From NCBI GenBank assembly GCA_013365365.1, contig JABVXU010000020.1:62001-126000 (forward strand): a DNA stretch of 64,000 bases, in the 5' to 3' direction. The stretch comes from Cruorifilaria tuberocauda. Taxonomy: Eukaryota; Nematoda; Chromadorea; Rhabditida; Onchocercidae. Made by a program: the position numbers and the translations under genes. The notes below the pieces were generated by a model, which was not told where the DNA came from, did no database searches, and saw nothing but the letters and a program-made list of their open reading frames with translations. Shown here one piece after another: positions 5,917 through 42,200 of the stretch (positions are counted from its first letter, which is position 1; each line of letters starts with the position of its first letter).

Positions 5917-12253
<6,337 letters not shown>

Positions 12254-13427: not shown

Positions 13428-16400
13428 TTAATATTCTAACCTAATACTTCTTGAAATGGAGGGCATGCAATTTCTAGGTGATTTACCATGCATGTAAGCA
13501 AATACTCGATTCACTGCTCGCCATGATTTACAAAGTTTTCGAATAAGGTTTGGCAACTGCACCACTTCTTGGCTCGCAGCATATAGTGTAATTACACTCC
13601 TAAAAAAACTTGTTAATTGAATAAATAGGGAATGAGCTAATATATTAAAACTTATTTGCAGTTTGATCAGTGATTGATTTCGAGATAGATTTACAGTAGA
13701 CATTACATAAATGCTTGTGCTTGATGTTTATAGTTGTAATAACAAATAAATGCGGTCAATGCATAGCAAAGAATTTTCAGTGTAAATCCGCATGTTTGTA
13801 CAATTGAAAAGTTTGCTGCTCGCAGCACAGAATATTTATATAGTTTCAATAGCTTCGTTTTCTTCTGAAAAAAACCAAGTTCATTCATACAATAAACGCA
13901 TTTTTGATTTTAACTCAAGTTAATTTAAGTATCAGCTTAGTCGTTAATGCAAAATTTACGCCAACCTGAGTACATCGAATATTTGCACAATAAGTCAGTA
14001 CTTCGAATTCCATTTCGATTTGTACCGAAAGGCATAAAACAATGAAAATAAGTCCAAGTAGGGCTATCTGTCAATATATAAACGTGTCATTTTCAAATGA
14101 TTACAAGTAAAACATGAATTAAAGAAAAAAGGAAACCAATCGAAACTTACTTCCCAGCTATAAATGAAACCAAGAATGATATTTGTTGTCATTGAAGTTA
14201 TCCGTGTCATTAATTCTGATATATGTGGATGATACAGCTATAACATATATAAAGTTTCAATTATTGCAAAAATTTCCTATTCTTTGCTATTGTTTTATAC
14301 GTGAATTTCATTTAAACGTTTCAAATATTAAAGTTAATATGAGATAATCAAGTATAATGATTGATATTATAATGAATGAAATAATCTGAAAGATGGTTGT
14401 ACTTCTACAAGATTTATTGTACTGAGTGGATCTACAGTTATTTTAATTTTTTTTTGTTTATTTATCATCTTATCTATAGACAATTTATATTTCTGTTAGA
14501 AGTATCTTACTGATTTTGCTTCAGATGTTAGTGAAATATTTTCATCCACCAAAGTGTTAATTTTCGATTTACTGAATGGCTCTTTATCAGCCATTTTTAA
14601 TAACTGGCGAGAAAGAATAACTCGAAACGATACAGCCATGTGTTCGGATGCTACAGTTGTCAATATAGTCTGAAATCAATTATTCTCAAGTCTAATTTGA
14701 TTTCATGCTTATCATAATTAATCCTATCTACATTTATGTTTATGATTGTTAAGTGAATTGATACTGATTATTTACTGTAAATAAATAGTAAAAAAAATTA
14801 TTGTAAATAAGTATGTATTAGCGATAATAATAATCATAATTTCATAGTGATATATCATAATCAAGATAAATTCATCAAATTCAAGAGTTCAAGCATTTAA
14901 AGGATACTTTTACTGTTTAGACTCATTCTATACTTTATTATAACGATAAAAAACAACCGTATTGATGTATTAATTGTCTCTAAAACTATTCCTTTTCATC
15001 ATTTTAAATGAATGTGACGATTTTTGACCGATTCTGAAGTTATGTGAAGAATAATAAATTTGTTTAAAAAATAAAATAAATGAATGGAATGTTGACCAAT
15101 GCAGTTCGTGATATGAAAACAGCGAAACCGATAGCTGATAATTTAATGGCGCTAACAGTCAAGAGATGAATGTTTGGGATATCACCGAGCATTGCTATGA
15201 AAATTTGACCCATGACTACATTGTATGCAACCTGTTCGAGTCCATGTATAATGGCCAAGATGAAACCAACAAACTACAATAGTCATTTTACAGTTTGCAT
15301 TTACGTTAATTTTTCATGTAATTTCATGAAGTTCATTAATCAAATTAAAAATTCATCCAGATTTATAATTACTTCACAAAATTTAAATCTTAATTTCTTG
15401 CTGTTAAATTCTCATCAAAGATCTACTGATGGTGATAATTTAAATGGTACCTCTTTTTGTTGTGGGTGCATTCAATAATGATCCATAAATTCAGTCTCGC
15501 ATGGCAAAAGCTAAGTTTCTAATACATAAAGTATGCGAAGAATCAAAATGTAATTTATGGCAAACTTACAAGAAATAACTTATGATTATGATAATTGCGT
15601 AGAACACTTCTAGTGCCACTTATGAATCGAATGATGGAATTTCCTTCTGGGGAAGTCACTGACTTCTTGAATTCTGGGACGGTGATTAATGTTACGGTTA
15701 TTCCATCCATCGAACAACGTCGATTGCATTCTGGGGATAACTTGAAAGAAAGAAATTTTTCAAAAAAATTAATTGGAAAATTAGAATAATTTCTTTGATC
15801 AACCTTGATGAGAATCAAAATCTTTACCATAAACTGATGATCAAATTGTCTAAGATTCCAAATATATAATGCAGCACGGATAGCTTTCTTAATGAAACAG
15901 TAATCCGTGGTGGCGGTTGAAATACTATCTACAATGAGTGCCATCGATAATACTATAATAAATATGTCGCTTTTCTTCATCATTGGATTAATATCAAGAA
16001 GGTAACCGCCATAACTATAATTTCGCAAAAAATATAATTTAATTTGAAAAAAAAGTTCGAACATTTGCTCATAAATGCAAGGTCATAAAAGTTACTCAAA
16101 ATGTTTGGGAGGGTTAGATGACGTACAATCTCGAAATATTACTATTCTATTAGTAAGTTAAACTTTTCTACACAATTGCATAAATGAAGTAAATTGAAAA
16201 AGTGTCGATGAAACAATTTGAAAGTGCTAACAGCATTCCACAGCCGATAAATGTGAAAATTGTAAATGATAGAATTCCGGAATGAGAGCTCTTCCAGATT
16301 TGATCTAAGATAGCATATCGGGTACAGCTTCTTACTTCTGATGATAATCTCATCAAATGCTCATCGTTTGCAATTTTATCATTGAAATTTTTTTGTAATA

Positions 16401-18428
16401 ATAATTCTTTTTCCATTTGAATAGTTTGAGAAATTTTGCCAGACAGAATGATATTAGATTTCTTGGAAAGCTGTAAATTGAGCAGTAAAAAGAACAGTTC
16501 ATCGTTAAAACGGAATATTTTAATTTCGCTTATCAATTTAATCAACTTTTAATATTGTTAATGAAGAGCAAGATTGGCAAAAAAGCCTTTTTCATAAATA
16601 ACAGATCACTGCTATTTCTTCATATTTTTCCAATTCTTTGAAATTGAAAATTTTTTATTAAAGATTTCATTTAGGAAATCTTTCTTTTCATTCCATCAAT
16701 TTACCCTTTTTGAAAGTATATTCAATGTCATAACCAGTGGTACAACACCAATAATAATCAGTGATAGATGAATTTCATGATAAAAACAAATAATCAGAGA
16801 TGATATGATAATTGCAATATTTCGACATTGCATCCCGAAAATCTCCGATCCTTTTTCTACTAAATCAATATTCCTGCAATTTTCTTCAAAAATTTCAAAA
16901 TTGTATTCATTTTTTGTTATTTGTTATTGTGAATTATTTCAGTATTATCTTTCGAAGGACATCGAATTTATGAGAGAATATAAATTTAATGTTTTCCGAT
17001 TTTTGTTAACTGCTGAGGAAAAATTCCTTGACAACAAGAATTTTCAAATTATAAGCTCGCTGAAAATTTTAATTTCATTTTTCATACGCAGTTTTAGATT
17101 TCAGTATTATTTGATCATGGTGAAAGGAGAGTGAACTTACTCAATTAATTTTGCAATGATTTCTTCACTGAAATATTTGTGTCTGTGTATTCCATCGTAA
17201 AGCTGTTTCAAACGAATTCCAATTTTCTCGCTGAGAACTGTGCTTGACATAAGCTTAATTAGGCTACTGTTATTGAAAGTTAAAAAATCAAAGAAAAAGA
17301 TGAATTTGCCAAAAATTCAAGCAAATTTTTCTCATAAAATCCGTTACATAATTTACAATTAAATAAGCTCAAGGATGGAGAAAAATAAACTTCAACAAAT
17401 GAGAATTGTCTTATGAATGATCAAACTAATTATAAGTTAAATTATTTAAAGCATTAATGTAAGGGATATGTCTTTAATATTTTATAAATCTGTTTATAGT
17501 GATCCTTCCCGTCGATAAAATAGCAGTGGGAAGACAATAAGAGTTATTACTCTAATCACTTATTAATTAAATGTAATGTTAAAGCATTTTAGGAATAAAA
17601 TAGATTAAATAAAAAAGAAAGAATTTACCATGCCAAAATGAGTAGCAACAGCTAATGCAATGATAAATATAAGAATAATTATTTGTTCATAAATTCCTTT
17701 AAGGAAAATTACAGTTGTTGCTTCATCTGTTAAGAGAATTTGCTTAATTCGGCCGAGGAATACTATCACAAATGAAATGCTACAACCACTAAGTATCGCA
17801 AATAAGAGGCTGAGCATAAAAATTTTATTGCTTGATTTACTATCACAAATCTGAAAAGTTAAAAGTTAGAAAGATTTATAGATTTTTTGATCGACGGGCC
17901 TATCCTTCTACATTCTTCAAAGATATGATATTATTGTTTTATTTTTGAAGAAAACATTGAATAACAGCGAGAAAAGATTATTATTGAATTCGTTTCAAAT
18001 AGATTTTCAATTGATCTCAGATAACTTCCACCTTAAATTCGTCATTCTGAAAGATTATATGCAAGTCTAAAAAGTTTTGCAAGTAGAATAAAATGAGGAA
18101 CATACCATTTTAAAAAATATTTTCTGCTTTAGAAACCATGATAGCGTCTTCTGATTTTTGCTAAATTCGCATAGCGTTATACATGTACTACTTCAACAAG
18201 CTTCTATCAAATCAAATTTAAAATTAAAACTATAAAACTGAAATATATTTGAAGAAAAATTGACCTTCCAGAATCCATCGCGAAACTATCAGCAACAGTT
18301 GTTATTTCATTCATCCTACTTGCAATCACATGATGCTGCTTATCATTACTCATTCCTAGTGCACTTTCTGCTGGCGCTTTTTGTTCCATGTTTGACAGAT
18401 CGCCGTAATACAGTCCATTTCGTGTCAT
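13428..18428 (-). CDS. ABCB/P-glycoprotein-like protein with both transmembrane domains but no ATPase domain, 14 exons, 744 aa
   Basis: Exons in coding order: 18265-18428, 18106-18160, 17629-17850, 17141-17253, 16705-16873, 16172-16470, 15828-16014, 15570-15740, 15097-15273, 14511-14669, 14151-14237, 13966-14067, 13707-13864, 13428-13599; the sum is 745 codons with the stop. The N-half follows the P-glycoprotein TMD1: AILSGCSISFVIVFLG (TM1), DLVEKGSEIFGM before TM3, FYHEIHLSLIIIGVVPLV (TM3-4), YGGYLLDINPMMKKSD (TM5-6). The C-half repeats the plan: FVGFILAIIHGLEQ (TM7), LSRQLLKMAD, LGFIYSWEIALL (TM9-10), SVITLYAASQEVVQLPNL (TM11-12). After TMD1 come only about 57 linker residues where NBD1 should be, and the protein stops about 35 residues after TMD2. 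Full P-glycoproteins are about 1,280 aa, and 744 is close to that length minus two NBDs. The family would predict an ATP-driven exporter, but without an NBD this cannot hydrolyse ATP alone; its role is unknown. Junction 3/4 uses a weak acceptor. A chemoreceptor identity was considered and rejected. Confidence 0.75.
15570..15740 (-). other. Exon encoding the linker that replaces NBD1 in the ABCB-like protein
   Basis: This 57-codon exon begins LSPECNRRCSMDGITV and ends NYHNHKLFL. It occupies the position where about 250 residues of NBD1 lie in P-glycoproteins. It has no Walker A, Q-loop, signature or Walker B motif. The flanking introns are about 87 nt and 296 nt, too short to hide an NBD. Confidence 0.6.
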
Positions 18429-19342
18429 CTTTCACTTCCGTTTTTTATCACAATCAATTTTGTTGAAGCAGATTCCTTTAAATCACATTCTTCAATTAAA
18501 ACTCTCTAATATTCTTACCAATCAATCTTCAAAATTTAGGATCCATGAAAGAAATTAATGAATCCATAGAAATGATTCAATTGAGAGAACTTTCAGTGAA
18601 ATTTTTGCATCCTTTTTGTTTATTAGAATGAAAATTTTCTTTGTTTTTTAGTATTACTATTAAATTGCAATTTCAAGAATAATTAGTTGCTCCATTTTAC
18701 AGTTAAATGCTTTTTGTTTTTCAGATTTCTGAATTTATTGCAAAAAAGAATTCAATAATATCCTTTTAATCAAAGTTACATTAAAAATGATTTTATCTAT
18801 AAATTTAAGAATTAGATTAAAGCCTCCAAATAGTAATTATTTCAAACAATGAAATAACTATTTCCATTCTTGAATTTATGCATAAAAAAGTAAAGCATTT
18901 ACTGTCTATTAAACACTTTAAAAAAAGTAACAAAATGATTCAGATTCCTCACGCCTTGACATATTGATATGTACTGTTTTCATAATAAAATGTTTTTTTC
19001 TTTTAGTTTACACAAATTAAAATGATTTAAAACTTTCTTAAATAATTTCAGATATAAAAATAACACTTCTATAGTTGTAAATGTCTCTTCAATTTTTGTA
19101 GCGACCTTTCAAACATAATATGAGATTGCGATAACTTGACATCTTTTGAAAAAATTTCCGATATTTCTGAAACTAAATACACTGCACCTTATTTAACAGT
19201 TGAATTTAATTAATGACACTGAATATTAGCAATTCGATCAGAAACATTTAAATGAAAGATTATTTGGCTTTTTTCTATATCGTTTTTTCATTTTTTGATT
19301 GCATTAATACTTTAAAGATTCAACAGAGTAACTGACAAACAG

Positions 19343-19351
19343 ACACACACA

Positions 19352-19382
<31 letters not shown>
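19343..19382. repeat. Compound (AC)n(AG)n microsatellite
   Basis: An uninterrupted run of about 13 AC units passes directly into about 7 AG units. It is a simple-sequence repeat and likely polymorphic. Confidence 0.95.
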
Positions 19383-27507: not shown

Positions 27508-30500
27508 TTAAATTTTTGGTGACTCGTGTGACAGTCTTTCGACATCATTGAAACGCACTGCTATGCCTCCTCCAGCAGTTGGGATACATTCACCCTACAA
27601 GGAAGAACTTCACTGAACAATTTTTAATTATTTATTTTTTAAAAATCATGAAAAAAAAATTCATTTCCTATAGTATAGATCTGATGCTAAATTACTAATT
27701 GTGAAAAAGATTTCACAACTGAAATCAAGTCCGTAATGAGAGTTTAGCATCTACCTGGTATCTTATTCCTAATCATCGTTAGTAAACCACTGTACTGAAT
27801 AACTAAACAGTCTTAACAACTAAAATCTTACAAATCCTCAATCTTAAATTTTGAATTATTTATGCCATATTTATGGGTCCTAATAAATTTTAGTTAGAAT
27901 TTGTAAATTATTTCCAGGAATTAACAAAAAATATTTTGATATCTTTCGTTGAAACATATAAGTTTAAAATACCTTAACAACATGTGTAGTGAGACAGCCC
28001 TCCCGGTTAACTTCCTGATGCGTCAGTACATAATCAGAGCACTTTTTCAAATTTTCCGCACTTAATTTAGTCGTAGTTTTTGAAAATTTTGGCATTCGTG
28101 GTTGCAAGATCGTGCCTTCCGGAATGCGATTTCGAGGTTGATGATCAATGATCCTACAATTCGCACTCTTGGATCGTCTGTGAAATCGTGCATTGTAATA
28201 ACCAGTATGAGTTTTTGCTGAAGTCTGAAAACAGAACGCCCGGTTTTAGACCATATTTTAATCAGTGTTATATTTTAATCCCGAACTTATCTCAATTAAA
28301 ATCATTTTCATAATTTCAATTACTCAAATTAATGAATTCCATTATTTGATAAACTTACATCTTGATTAACAGTTCGTGCTTCCCACTTCTGTCTTGCGAG
28401 CGCAACGCGATGAGGTGTTGACAATTCTTCATTCTGCATAATTTTAAAATATACGTCTTGCACAATATCACGCTTTAAAGGGAAACAAAGAGTTTGAATA
28501 ACTGAATATTCAGCTACAGCGATTCTACTGTCAATCTTTCTATTTGCAAAATTTTTAGAGAAGAATAATTTATAATTATTAATATTTTTGGTTTTATCAA
28601 AATATAGAAATTTTAATTTTCTCGACAGATAGTGCAATATAGTCTACTATTAAAATGGCTTTTTTGTAAAATAAAGATTTAAAATCCATTTTTGTAATAA
28701 GAAAGTTAACCTTCTCATCATTAATCGGATCGTTATTATCTACTGTGACTGTATTGTGAATATTTTCAATGCTTTTGAAACGTTTAGTTGACGAAACAAG
28801 CGGCCTTTCACATATTTCACGTACCTTAAAGTTTAACAATTGGAATTTATAAAATCATAAATCGATATAATAGAGCAAATTAGTCCCATAAACAGTTAAT
28901 TTTATTTTTTCGAAAAATCATTAACCTGATGAAGTGTTTTTTCCTTTTTACGAAGCTGTTCCTGATACAGTCTCTCCCGTCGTCTATGCTCCTCCTCTTG
29001 ATTTAATTTCTTGTTCTCTTCCAATTCACAATGCTCCAAATGTTGTCGTAAGGTCAAGTTTTCATGCTAAAAATGAATTTTTTTTCCCCTTCTGAAGTAA
29101 CTATGAGGACTTAATCTTAATCTAACAAAATTAGAATGAATTACTGCAACTAGGGAAATAAGAATTTACCCGCATTTGCTTCAGCTTGCATGTCAGTGTT
29201 GATAAAAGTCGTTCCGTTTCATCTCTCTCTGCTTCAAGTTCCTGAATGCGGATTTCTTGAAGATCAACAGTGCACAAAGCTCGTTGTAATTGTTGCTCCA
29301 TTTCAGTCACTGTAGGAAGTAAAGACTTTAATAATTTGTTCGCAAAACAAACTAAATTGCAAGAGCAAGTTCCCTTAAGCGAGAAAAATTGTATATTTAA
29401 GCATTACGTCGTTAAGAGCTCGGTTGTCAATAACTGAATAATACTGACATAGATTTACGCTAAAATAGTTTTGCAGAAAAAGAAAGAAAAATCAAATTCA
29501 TAGAAAAAAGAGCTACCTTTACGTTCAAATATTACATACAAAGAATTATATTCTTGTGCGCTGCACTGATAGTAATTACGTAATCGTGCTATCGACTCTG
29601 CATCTTCCGAACCGGAAACACTGAACGGTGGTGGCAATGGAAAAGATAACATTTCTTTGTTCTAAAGACAAAATAATTTACATTTCGAAAACTTTCTAAC
29701 ATACGATTTAAAAAAACAGCAAGCAAAAGCAAATAAGCCAACCGAGATATGTACAGGTCCTAATTCGTTTAACCATTTCAGGAAATCACGACGACTGATT
29801 GGAAAACCAGATTGGGATGGTGGCATAACTTCGTTCCCTTCCCGAACTGCGATATCCTTTGACAGTTGCGCAAAGTTTAATACACTCTAAATACAAATTC
29901 AAATATTAAATACAAGCAACAAACATAGTAGCATGCAATCTGAAATTATCAGGTAATCATACTTGAACTTTTCAGTTCCAATAGTTTTTGAACTGTTGAA
30001 TCAGAGAAGAATGCAATAAAAACGTAGAGTAGGAAGCTGTCACCTGATTCTCACTGAAATCTTCTGGTCTTGGATTTAGACAAATAATCAAACGAACTTT
30101 TCCAGTTCCTTCGAAAAAATTTTTAAATAGATGTGTTATTTTCGATTCCCTGTATGAAATCGCAGCTGCTTTATCACGTAACTGATTCTCCCTATAATCG
30201 TATTTTTTATACTCGATTTTGTATTTGTAAACATATTTGTATTTCTTCACCTCTCGCATTTTAATCAAAATATGATCCTCGAATACTAATACGAAATTCC
30301 AATATTGCTGATAAATTACGAAGAATTTCGTTGTTGAATTTGCATGGAACTTTTGGAACATATATTTGGCTTTGCTTAATACATCCAATTGAGACTATTT
30401 CCTTGTTTTTAGTACGCCTGTTCCAGACTTTCATTTAGGCTATTTTTAATGTCGTTAATGTTAATCAGAACAAGCGATTGTTCCAAAAATATCTTTCATT

Positions 30501-32907
30501 ACAATATTTTTGTAGGAACTTGTCACATACCGCAACTTCTCAAAACATTGGCGAAGAACTGAAAGTCCTTGATTTATTTTGCTGCTTTCAAGAAGACGTG
30601 TTCCTTCATTACCTGTTCTTTTTGTACGTTCTGACCCAGCTAAGTCAACTAGTGATAACTGGCTAACATAAATCTGTAAAAAAGAGCTGTTTTTCTTAAT
30701 AACATCAGAAGCTCAAAGTCCTTCATATACATAGATTCCTGATTAGATAGATTAAAACCTTTGTAGGATCAGCATCAGGATAACATGTATTCGGAAGGCA
30801 AGGCGCCATTACTACACGAATATTAAATATAGAATGTGAACGACTGCTCTGCTTGTTCAATAACGTATCACCGACACGTCGCCTCTCTTGTCCTAAAAGA
30901 AGAGAACCACTATTAACAAATTATTTTATCTCTCGATTATAACGCAAAAAAATTTCGGATTCTCCCTGACACAACACATTTAATCCCATAATGATTTAAC
31001 TGTCTACGATCACAATCCAATATAAAACTCGAAACATACGTACTTTCGCACTTTGATACAACTTAAATCTTCAAGACAGAATTGGATTCGATATCTCTAA
31101 TAACTCCTCTATCTACCTGAGCAATGATTTATAAACATAGCACAAATCCGATTACCTCGGTAAAACTGTTCCAATGCTTCATCACTTGAATCCACTTCAA
31201 CTTCAGTTATATTACCCACGTAAAACATATTATTGGCGCCTAGTCTAATATCCTTACCAGATAGCGTCCTAAAAGGTGATACGCTGAAATCAGTCATCAA
31301 CGAGGCAAATCGAACTGCTTAGTTCACTTAAAGTTTTCAAATAATAATAAGCAAAGTTATTTATTATGTGATATTAACATATAATTCTTTCCAATATGCT
31401 GGAAGATAAGAACAAGAGAAACAACCTTTTCAATTGTCAGCAGCATACTATAAAAATTAAAGTAAAACTTACTTAGTACCATCTACCTTGAGAAGAGGTT
31501 CTTCAAGAAGATCATAACAAACTTCATTATAAATTTCGATATAGGAAACGAATACTGCACAAGCCAAGTCCGGATTAGCACCGCTAACCTAAATTTCTTA
31601 TTTTATTTGATCTAATGTATCATAACAACAAAAAGCATGCTAGATATTTAATACATATTGGATGTAATTTTACATATTTGAGATTTGGATAATACTAAAT
31701 CATTATCTTTTTTTAAAGATGGCTCGTTGAATACGTTGATACAAAGCAATTAAAGACTTTAAAAGATAGCGCTATATTAGATCAAAAATAACCCTCCGAC
31801 GTTCAATGTAGCGATTTGCTAATTCAACTCCATTATCAGAACGCTCGAGCTCCAAGCGTCGTCGTGCAAGTGCCGATTCAAACTCGTCACGCACAATAAA
31901 ACCATTACGTCCATCTGGTTTAAAAACACATTTATCCACGTGGTTGATTAGCGAATTGAATATAACATCGAGAGTACGTGGAAGAATCCCAATCGACTCT
32001 TCCTATAAAAATTAAAACGCTTCAGCAAAAAAGAAATATATTATATTCTTAGGCCCTAAAATAGAAAAAATACATATCAACAAGAGTTATTTAATCAATA
32101 TTCGAAGTAATTATAAAGTAATAATTTTCAAAGAGCGTTAAGATGGCAAAACTTGGCATATGAGAATGTCTCAGTAACATAAAATACATATAGTGGGGGT
32201 AAGGTATTCACACTGGACAAAAAGCTTAAGAAAATAATTTACCTCGGTATTTCCAGTCATTGTGTAAGTTTTACCGCTTCCAGTTACTCCATACGTGAAA
32301 AGCAATGAATTCTTCCCACGGATGAGATTTTCGATTAAATCCAGAGCAGTACGCTCAAACACTACCCGTTGACTATCACTGTCATCAAAGATATATGAAA
32401 ATTCGTAAATAGTTTCCAGCTGCAACTTGATCAATTATCCAAATGAAATTCAGTGATATGATATGTCTAAAATATAGTAGGAAACAAAAAACGATCTGGA
32501 CAGGTATATACAACTTGCGATCTTATGAACTTTGATCGAGCGGCTAATCTCGCCATTGTAGATAAAGAAAAACCTCAATAGCCTACAGTACTGCACATCT
32601 ACAGCCTAAAAAAGCTTCATTTCAACAAGTCTTTTTACTACCGGTATTCCGTTCCTGGACTGCATGGCAGCAGGTTGTACAAATCGAACATGCTCATCAT
32701 CGATTGGTATTACGCAGGGATCATTGCCCTTATAAGGACATAAACGGCAAACTACTTCCACATTTTCCTTATTATTCATACGTTTACCACCTCGTCGTGA
32801 TGGAGTGCCAGCGCGTCTAGAATATTGAAATAATCAGTTAAAATGAATAAGCATTCAATCCGGAACTTAAGTAAATGGTCAAGGACGTACTTTCGAGAAC
32901 TTGACAT
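27508..32907 (-). CDS. zen-4: Mitotic kinesin-6, ZEN-4/KIF23 (MKLP1) orthologue, 17 exons, 778 aa
   Basis: Plus-end motor of the centralspindlin complex, which with CYK-4/RACGAP1 bundles midzone microtubules for cytokinesis. Exons in coding order: 32891-32907, 32642-32816, 32243-32425, 32002 to 31793, 31473-31588, 31156-31268, 30759-30892, 30531-30673, 30044-30191, 29743-29886, 29517-29661, 29170-29309, 28926-29066, 28711-28824, 28359-28433, 27973-28224, 27508-27594; 779 codons with the stop. Motor motifs: [15 protein letters not shown]-loop GVTGSGKT, switch [10 protein letters not shown], switch II DLAGSER. After the neck comes a coiled coil (exons 12-13, EQQLQRALC to QEQLRKKEK). The tail has [24 protein letters not shown] and [19 protein letters not shown], matching the KIF23 C-terminus with its Aurora B/14-3-3 site. 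The exon 10 donor could be 12 nt earlier without a frame change. An acceptor TTTTTTCAG 50 nt upstream of the ATG may be the trans-splice site. Confidence 0.95.
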
Positions 32908-39254: not shown

Positions 39255-42200
39255 TTAAGCTGTTCCTGATAGCTGTTTTTTGCAAAAATCTCTCACTTTT
39301 TGCAAAATTTCAATTTCTGATAATTTTAATCTTATAATCATGGATTTCCGAATTCTATCAGAGGATCTGTTAAATTCTGGATTTTCTACTGGATCTGGAT
39401 CGATTATAGTACCGTATGCTCTGAGTAGCAGAACGAAACGATCATGGAGAAAACTCCAAGCTTTTCGAATGTTATCTGAAGAGTTTACTGCTTCCTTTGC
39501 TTGTTCGGCTACTGAAGGAATTTCATCCAAAACATAAATTTGAGCAAAACGGAATAATGAGTCGTGGAAATATGGTTCGCATACGGCAAGTTCGAAGACA
39601 AAAACTGTCGATTCAGCAACAAAACCAAGAACATGAAACAGATACATGCGTATATCTTCACGTTTCGATTTTGGAAGTCCTGAAAGCGAAATTCTTGGAA
39701 AAAAATTATCATTTTTAACCTACTATTCAATAAATGTTTTTCTCAATTGGTTTTGTTCATAAAAATCCAGCGCCCAATAATTCAACATTTCATACCGCTA
39801 AAAAATCTTATCAAGGGAATGAAATATGGATCAGTCGCGAATTCAACTTCTTGATTAATAAAATTTTGCTTTCTATAAACAAAAGAACAAACAGATGCGA
39901 AATTATCAAACATATTTAAAGCAGCAATCGCTGAATTATTTAGTAGAATATGTAGGTAGGTGAAAAGAGGAAAAGAATGAACAGCCTTACTGACACATAT
40001 CAAAAATTAATTCAATGATACACAGCTTCTGGACAAAATTTTCTATAAATAGACTCCAAATTATTCGCAACCTACCAATTTTCAATTTGTAAATGTCTCG
40101 AATATTTTTCTCGCGAGGTACAAAACCATTATACAACAGGAAATCACGATTGCTTCGCCAACCATAAAAAATATTCATAGATTCTAAAGGTTTGTAATCT
40201 CGAACAGCGATGATTTCTGCACAATCAAATTCATCCGAAAAATGTACTGCCTCATGAAGAACGTCTTCAGTATAACTGTGATTTGCCATATCCAGAAATG
40301 GTATCAATGCAGGTATCTAATTTAAAAAACATGAAATTATAGCCTCAAATACCGTTTGACAATATATGCTGTTATTTCGATCAAATGTTTCATTTTAAAT
40401 TTCAAAAATTTTAAGTTATTGTAAAAACCTCTCTGCTGTTTATAATATTATATTATGTACAGAAAATTTTCCTGAGGAAAAACCTTTGACGAATTGCTTA
40501 TGACACAAATATTTAGCTTGCACTTAACTAGGAGGTAAGTAATAAGCCAAATTCCTAATATATGTTTAGTGAATTTACAAATACAGCTGAAACCTTTGTA
40601 ACACCACATGTACAAATCTAAAAAGTAGAGTTCCAATAATATAAAAACACACCATCCGTGGTTGACCTGTGGCATCTTTCAATATTTCACTTGGTATCAT
40701 ATTAATACGTGTTGAGATGCAAGCAACGGACCATCGATATAGGTTGAATGTAAAATTTGATGCAGTGAGAGGAGAATTAACATATATTGGTTCTAACTTT
40801 GACATCTCTTCTTTTGATTTCTAAAACATTCTGCTGAATCACTGTGCTATCAGTAAGAAATGATAATATAAATTATAACCGAAAATAATATGCTAGCTAA
40901 CTTCTTAGATAAATCAATTTTGAAACCAAATTTTAAACTAGTTTTAACAAAACTTAAGATATTCTGTAATTATGGGATGAATGGTAGAAAAGAGATTTGG
41001 GTAGTTTTATTAAAATAAAAGATTATATGTAGACTGAACAAACAAAGCGCTTTTCAAAATTAGACGAAGATACAATAAAAATATGACCTTCATGATATCG
41101 AATGAGAAAATGAGTGTGCAATAAAATGTCTACTAAAAAATTTTCATTTAATCAAACAATGTTACCTTTTTTCTATGACGAAATTCATCACTGCGTATGA
41201 TTTCCAATAAAAAATGAATAAATTGTCTAGAAATATTTCGGTACAGCAATAATGATTCTTCAAATAATGGTGATGGACGCAAAAACTGAAAAATGAAAGC
41301 AATCAGCATGTTATTACCAGACGATTAATGTAATGCATTTCACTGTTACGAACATAGAAAATGTCAGAGAAAGTCTCTACAAAAAAGATCTACGGTAATG
41401 GTCAATGAATTGTTCATTACGATTCATCCACTGCGGTATAGATGATTTAGACTGCTCAGCTTTTGTCTAGTTTCTGTGGTGCATGTAGAAATACATCACG
41501 TTGGTCTTGCAAATAAGAGACTTATAATTCATTCATTAGATTTCCTTCTCGTAATAGGAAACTAGTCGGCTTTCAAAAGCAAAGGCATATATCGAATAGA
41601 AAAAATCTTTTTAAAAAATTTCCAATTCCGTTATATGATGGTAGATGAAGAAGAAATGATTGTTGTTGTCATCTTTTAGTTGAAAGAGAGTAGAATTTTA
41701 ATACTTTTTTTCCTATTTAAAAAGCAGTGAGGAAATATACCTTACTGATTTTATTTACGCAAAAATATCCGTACCTATGTATGAGTTCACCAACCTGCAA
41801 TTGTTCAACAGTGAAGAAGAGAGGAGTATTGAAGATTTCAGGAAGTATTTTAATATATGGCTGCCAATGTGACTCAGGTACCACTTTTTGACAGCACAAC
41901 ATCATTGCCAAAGCAACATTTTCCATTGAACGTAATATTATATCTCTGTCGAATGCACGTCGGAAATTTGATTTTTATGAATCAAATTAAAAACTTTTAA
42001 ATCTATACTAAATTTAGAGTATCCGACAGCTTATTATTGGGAATGAAAAATTTACTTCAAGAAAGATGATCTTCGAGCTCGGTCCAATGAAAAGATTGCC
42101 TTTCGAGGCACTCTTAACAAATAAGATCCAGCCGTGACATAATCTGAGCATATCAAACCAAATTCATCCATACCTTCGTCATATGCAATTTCAACGAAAC

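Follow-up and report, generated by a model that had tools for sequence, protein, structure and literature searches.

ATP-binding cassette (ABC) transporters are defined by the ATP-binding cassette itself, and among them the P-glycoproteins (P-gps) of filarial parasites have been studied for drug response. A full transporter of the ABCB (P-gp) type carries two ABC_membrane domains in one chain together with two nucleotide-binding domains (NBDs) that have Walker A, signature and Walker B motifs; an ABCB half transporter (HAF) has one transmembrane domain (TMD) and one NBD. In plants, the membrane subunit STAR2/ALS3 is encoded apart from its NBD, but it is a bacterial-type permease, not an ABCB protein, and its NBD partner, STAR1, is known. 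Here we describe a gene in a 64,000-nucleotide stretch of the genome of the nematode Cruorifilaria tuberocauda (assembly GCA_013365365.1, contig JABVXU010000020.1, positions 62,001 to 126,000; hereafter the window) that, judging from its sequence, almost certainly encodes a protein of the ABCB type that has both membrane domains but lacks any NBD. Like STAR2/ALS3, it is a membrane subunit separate from any NBD.

Exporter membrane domains without an NBD have been engineered as MsbA-MD and LmrA-MD (PMC4979069, PMC6155054), but those are laboratory products derived from half transporters of bacteria, whereas the window gene is natural and has both halves fused. A truncated human P-gp shares with the window protein two P-gp membrane domains and the lack of any NBD, but is again a laboratory construct and not a natural gene (PMC4705942). 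A review of nematode ABC proteins recognizes single-domain forms with a membrane domain and no NBD; its passage on them gives no example and names no fused two-TMD ABCB form (PMC10300789). Titles and abstract openings in the open-access literature yielded no natural TMD-only ABCB protein, a weak negative because the coverage was open-access only.

The gene lies on the minus strand between an ATG at 18428 and a stop codon at 13430-13428, in 14 exons that join in phase across 13 GT-AG introns (Table 1). A preliminary description of the window had reported 14 exons with a continuous frame, which this model and the orthologues described below bear out, and had counted 744 codons, which they do not: with exon 6 ending at 16232 the frame holds 726 open codons. 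We rejected the 744-codon model, which needs a longer exon 6 without support among the orthologues (extension to 16172 gives 746 codons). Splice choices were set by the orthologues: P0002, P0007 and others fixed where exon 6 ends as well as the limits of exon 2 (18160-18106). An earlier model of 12 exons had begun at exon 3, and exon 2 was located by comparison to P0002 and P0007. The acceptor of exon 4 (ATTAAG) and the donors after exons 1, 6 and 9 are weak. Codon statistics, trained without the window gene and with reading frames of NBDs at P-gp loci as the only input, scored the spliced frame as the best of three in all 14 exons. A small gene finder reproduced exons 1 and 3-13 exactly and started exon 2 earlier, although, being partly trained on the window gene, it is not an independent witness. 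At the window's composition, 726 unselected codons would stay open with a probability of ∼1e-26, but the orthologues are the better proof of a gene because the exons had been chosen for openness.

The window protein matches Pfam ABC_membrane (PF00664) in two stretches with 40.3 bits against a cut-off of 28, and the outcome was the same with the 12-exon model. In contrast, ABC_tran (PF00005) gave no match in the window protein at E values up to 1. Both results agree with the preliminary description, which had proposed this comparison after reading two P-gp-type membrane domains from the letters and had named the lack of a TMD match as a refutation. Among PDB sequences the matches are mostly to ABCB exporters, the best being C. 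elegans pgp-1 (4f4c; E 2.2e-5), and with a profile of the whole family the value for an 'ABC transporter B family member 1' is 1.7e-7. In NCBIfam, the MsbA model is matched at E up to 1 by 8 of the 11 family members; for the window protein there is no match. The protein resembles pgp-1 and the P-gp encoded at locus L042 of its own genome in having two ABC_membrane domains in order with a linker between the halves, but differs in lacking NBD1 and NBD2, and it does not have the one-TMD, one-NBD arrangement of a half transporter either. The gene is real and conserved, a variant of the ABCB exporter kind that falls outside the definition of that kind.

The missing ATPase domains were also sought in the surrounding DNA. 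Six-frame motif scans of the 64 kb found no Walker B motif, no ABC signature with a strict pattern and no ABC motif set; a loose pattern gave one signature-like match directly after a stop, and the Walker A-like matches were the P-loop of a kinesin gene and one directly after a stop. The patterns are blind to motifs split by introns and also miss the P-loop of the adjoining helicase gene. As a control, the P-gp loci L041, L042 and L043 of the same genome each showed every one of the three motifs (Walker A, signature and Walker B) twice. PF00005 had no match on the window contig (19 of 74 candidates scored genome-wide). Where NBD1 would stand, exon 8 supplies the linker of about 57 residues that the preliminary description had read, and its other points on the missing domains, namely the absence of an NBD motif set, a stop near the expected start of NBD2 and introns too short to hide an NBD (the longest has 427 nt), also stood. 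Likeness of the linker to the first NBD1 strand was considered by eye only.

Elsewhere in the genome, NBD motifs occurred on 9 of 11 other contigs with ABC_membrane matches (C444 left out). The other two are C710, with NBD parts found on reading and by a PF00005 match, and C261, which carries the decayed-looking fragment described below. C421 and C710 were rejected as further TMD-only genes since both carry NBD parts. On contig C444 the ABC exporter frames, of 570 and 578 aa, run without interruption, and the contig is probably bacterial, perhaps of endosymbiont origin. An own-genome protein search revealed no second copy of the window gene (12 matches, all on the window contig; 10 candidates scored).

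Orthologues show that the lack of NBDs is not a slip of one assembly. One protein search recovered 10 orthologous proteins, from Cercopithifilaria, Dirofilaria (two records), Elaeophora, Brugia, Loa, Litomosoides, Setaria, Onchocerca and Thelazia, and a profile search added a fragment from Acanthocheilonema (P0011), ten named genera in all; the Thelazia protein as query brought nothing further. Setaria and Thelazia belong to the Spiruromorpha by taxonomy look-up, and the other eight genera are filarial, as is Setaria, which makes nine filarial genera plus Thelazia. Identity to the window protein is 50-80%. All 11 members of alignment A1 match ABC_membrane and none matches ABC_tran, a count that excludes P0011, which is outside A1 (the profile-search listing has P0011 and not P0010). 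One record is named 'Multidrug resistance protein' and others are hypothetical or unnamed; the models are predictions, several of them partial, and P0007 runs off the homologous frame after exon 11. Each search scored ∼8000 candidates of 0.55-1.75 times the query length, so that full-length P-gps were mostly no candidates, and the observation that no orthologue has NBDs at these positions (orthologues with NBDs there were what the preliminary description had named as a possible refutation) applies, like the restriction of the orthologues to the Spiruromorpha, within those lengths. An assembly or annotation artefact, in which real NBD exons had been dropped, could draw on the same limit, since a much longer NBD-bearing form could escape the searches, and on the blindness of the motif scans to intron-split motifs. 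Yet the window is free of N, the scans of its 64 kb gave no ABC motif set, PF00005 went unmatched on the contig, no intron exceeds 427 nt and ABC_tran is absent from all 11 members; we regard the artefact as very improbable.

The gene likely descends from a true P-gp gene. Profile comparison by hhalign matched its second half to TMD2 of own-genome P-gps with a probability of 94.4% over 271 columns, and a profile comparison of its first half with TMD1 gave 88.2% over 248 columns. The best-fitting of three P-gp models was L042 (23.9 bits; 10.6 and −0.9 for the others). Five of the 13 window introns share column and phase with a P-gp intron, and L042 accounts for four of these, which argues for common descent; none of 100,000 random placements reached five. 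A version leaving out two window introns gave 5 of 11, and as the P-gp models and their alignment are rough, single positions may be wrong. The window stop falls ∼10 columns past the intron that precedes NBD2 in L041 and L042, as if the donor there had been lost and the exon read through to a stop.

A P-gp derivative without ATPases might be a decaying pseudogene that has stayed open by chance, with orthologue models biased towards open frames by the gene finders that made them. To this would fit the predicted and partly incomplete orthologue models, the three of ten orthologue comparisons that are compatible with neutral change, and a Dirofilaria immitis ABC pseudogene, listed beside three pgps in a review table (PMC10300789). 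The same genome moreover holds a decayed-looking P-gp fragment (C261:70301-71721; L050, L051), a P-gp-like TMD piece followed by a frame that looks Tubby-like by eye; 18 kb of that contig showed no convincing NBD motif and one isolated loose signature-like match, and the fragment is probably a decayed P-gp relic that contrasts with the window gene. In the window copy, by comparison, no stop or frameshift interrupts the 14 exons. When its coding sequence was evolved neutrally to 90% protein identity, runs acquired a mean of 4.8 stops and only 4 of 300 stayed stop-free, and at 84% identity none of 300 did; neutral decay rarely keeps such a frame. In 7 of 10 orthologue comparisons the differences were more conservative than in all 300 neutral runs (BLOSUM62, nearest identity step), and 50-80% identity has been retained. 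The terminal branch of the window gene measured 0.11 substitutions per site in a tree rooted on Thelazia by choice, with several weakly supported inner nodes, P0009 left out and P0011 added. Inactivating lesions or a lack of constraint, the marks of a pseudogene, are thus not what the open frame and the simulation reveal, and we consider decay improbable.

The intracellular loops (ICLs) bear on whether an NBD could act in trans. The WFD or YFD motif and these parts of the loops serve coupling to the NBDs. It is present in ICL3 of all three P-gp models, and in ICL1 of L041, but in none of the 11 family members; the TR[LI] that follows it in ICL3 of L041 and L042 is also replaced in the family, and a TRI stands elsewhere, at the start of presumed transmembrane helix (TM) 9, in 8 of 11 members. 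The stretch between W580 and F644 measures 63-64 residues in the family, P0007 excepted, versus 94, 113 and 94 in the P-gp models, so that ICL4 is at least 30 residues shorter. By sequence alignment, the NBD-coupling motifs are therefore absent from the loops. A split ATP-driven exporter that borrows the NBDs of a separate protein, as STAR2 does with STAR1, could point to the survival of all four intracellular loops in some form, but with WFD/YFD gone and ICL4 shortened an NBD in trans looks unlikely, and we rate this explanation as improbable, if slightly less so than decay. The preliminary description had left the function open; among the options it offered, a separate NBD partner appears to fit worst and an ATP-independent transporter or channel best.

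Other parts of the protein are well kept. With segment borders set by hand and P0009 (the second D. immitis record) left out, conservation across the loops was lowest in ICL4 (0.45, or 0.48 without P0007) and highest in ICL3 (0.78), and ranged from 0.52 to 0.82 in TM3-TM12, TM1-TM2 having too few rows. Three charged residues, E453, K647 and E681, are nearly or fully invariant within presumed helices, the sole exception being a serine at position 681 in P0007, whose model has left the homologous frame by that point. The invariance of K647 (presumed TM11) and of E681 (presumed TM12) further distinguishes the window protein from P-gps.

Engineered NBD-less MsbA and LmrA make ATP-independent function possible. 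MsbA without its NBD carried out proton-coupled drug transport (PMC4979069); ion conduction is reported for LmrA-MD, and E314 in TM6 is required in full LmrA (PMC6155054). The second-half helix that corresponds to TM6 is TM12. Human P-gp without both NBDs matures with the ligand tariquidar (PMC4705942). On the strength of the lost coupling motif, the shortened ICL4, the charges and these precedents, we favour, tentatively, a P-gp-derived, two-TMD, NBD-less gene whose product is predicted to be ATP-independent and most likely an ion-coupled or passively conducting transporter. In such a protein the 12-helix P-gp-like core would fold and reach the membrane on its own, E453, K647 and E681 would face the central cavity, where they might couple substrate movement to an ion gradient (H+, Na+ or Cl−) or let ions pass, and the conserved ICL3 and linker would seal the protein towards the cytosol or bind a partner. 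The more specific proposal, that a natural ABC exporter lost its ATPases and turned into an ion channel or a transporter driven by ions, a form fixed before Thelazia and the filariae diverged and bearing a charged Glu-Lys-Glu set in the former drug-binding core, is more speculative still.

Several observations weigh against this interpretation. The three charges were hand-picked from a longer list, further charges are invariant besides them, E453 is also E in one P-gp model (L042), and their placement in the cavity is a guess; hydropathy alone does not resolve 12 helices. In the presence of a membrane potential, ATP elicited a current with full LmrA but none with LmrA-MD (PMC6155054). Exon 3, which holds TM1-TM2, is found only in the window, P0002 and P0007, and the models of P0006 (Litomosoides) and P0011 (Acanthocheilonema) run from exon 1 directly into exon 5 in frame without TM1-TM2, which may reflect annotation, alternative splicing or decay. 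The gene finder added short exons upstream, downstream and between exons 2 and 3, and took exon 14 to a donor at 13441, before the stop; we preferred the end at the stop because the orthologues were followed, and the window protein shares its LEY terminus with P0004, P0008 and P0009. The comparisons inside the neutral range are those with P0001, P0008 and P0009, and the D. immitis pseudogene of the review might be this gene (PMC10300789). Finally, that cytosolic ICL3 is the best conserved loop fits docking equally. The main rival is a scaffold: a non-transporting pseudo-transporter, comparable to a pseudoenzyme, that would bind a ligand or partner through ICL3 and the linker and regulate or compete with true P-gps or other membrane proteins. 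The rank of ICL3 in a protein that brings no NBD of its own to touch this loop, the conservation of the linker's C-terminal half (0.70) and the ligand-assisted maturation of NBD-less human P-gp (PMC4705942) would all suit this role; the conservation of TM3-TM12 and the invariant intramembrane charges, needless for a pure scaffold, would not. We regard the scaffold as possible but unlikely, and retain the ATP-independent, ion-coupled or conducting protein as the favoured reading.

Table 1. Exons of the window gene and codons of charged residues in presumed helices (window coordinates).
Feature	Position	Strand	Basis or remark
Exon 1, start codon and N-terminal tail	18265..18428	-	34% identity to P0002 and P0007
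Exon 2, pre-TM1 segment	18106..18160	-	Identity 63% to P0002, 57% to P0007
Exon 3, presumed TM1-TM2	17629..17850	-	Gene model, orthologue alignment, hydropathy
Exon 4, beginning of ICL1 (acceptor ATTAAG, weak)	17141..17253	-	Gene model, orthologues
Exon 5, end of ICL1 and presumed TM3-TM4	16705..16873	-	Preceding intron at a P-gp intron position
Exon 6, ICL2 and presumed TM5	16232..16470	-	Preceding intron at a P-gp intron position
Exon 7, presumed TM6	15828..16014	-	Gene model, orthologues
Exon 8, 57-residue linker at the place of NBD1	15570..15740	-	C-terminal half, mean pairwise identity 0.70
Exon 9, presumed TM7 and the larger part of TM8	15097..15273	-	Gene model, orthologues
Exon 10, end of TM8 and ICL3, best conserved loop	14511..14669	-	Both flanking introns at P-gp introns
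Exon 11, presumed TM9	14151..14237	-	Gene model, orthologues
Exon 12, presumed TM10 and start of shortened ICL4	13960..14067	-	Gene model, P-gp alignment
Exon 13, remaining ICL4 and presumed TM11	13707..13864	-	Gene model, orthologues
Exon 14, presumed TM12, C-tail, stop	13428..13599	-	Preceding intron at the position of P-gp introns
E453 codon, presumed TM7	15235..15237	-	E in 11 of 11 rows; P-gp models M, E, F
K647 codon, presumed TM11	13775..13777	-	K in all 10 rows that have a residue; P-gp models F, D, I
E681 codon, presumed TM12	13566..13568	-	E in 10 of 11 rows; P-gp models S, A, gap

Convergent with the gene lies a DEAD-box helicase gene (∼7500-12000, plus strand; PF00270 and PF00271 matches up to 10913), whose frames, followed by eye, extend to ∼11990 and so leave little room past the stop. 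Upstream there is a short AC dinucleotide array (19335-19369). The kinesin motor gene (PF00225) lies at ∼30000-32400 on the minus strand, and an open reading frame at 39255-39719, also minus, matches the Rubisco LSMT substrate-binding domain with 22.5 bits against a cut-off of 21.6. Scans of the window for tRNA genes and Rfam families gave no matches, and repeat scans nothing bearing on the gene.

For surveys of P-gps, the consequence is that the window gene is not to be counted as a pump. If our reading is true, a P-gp membrane core kept by nature would put to a direct test what the experiments on engineered NBD-less MsbA and LmrA suggest, namely an exporter fold able to function in the absence of ATP.

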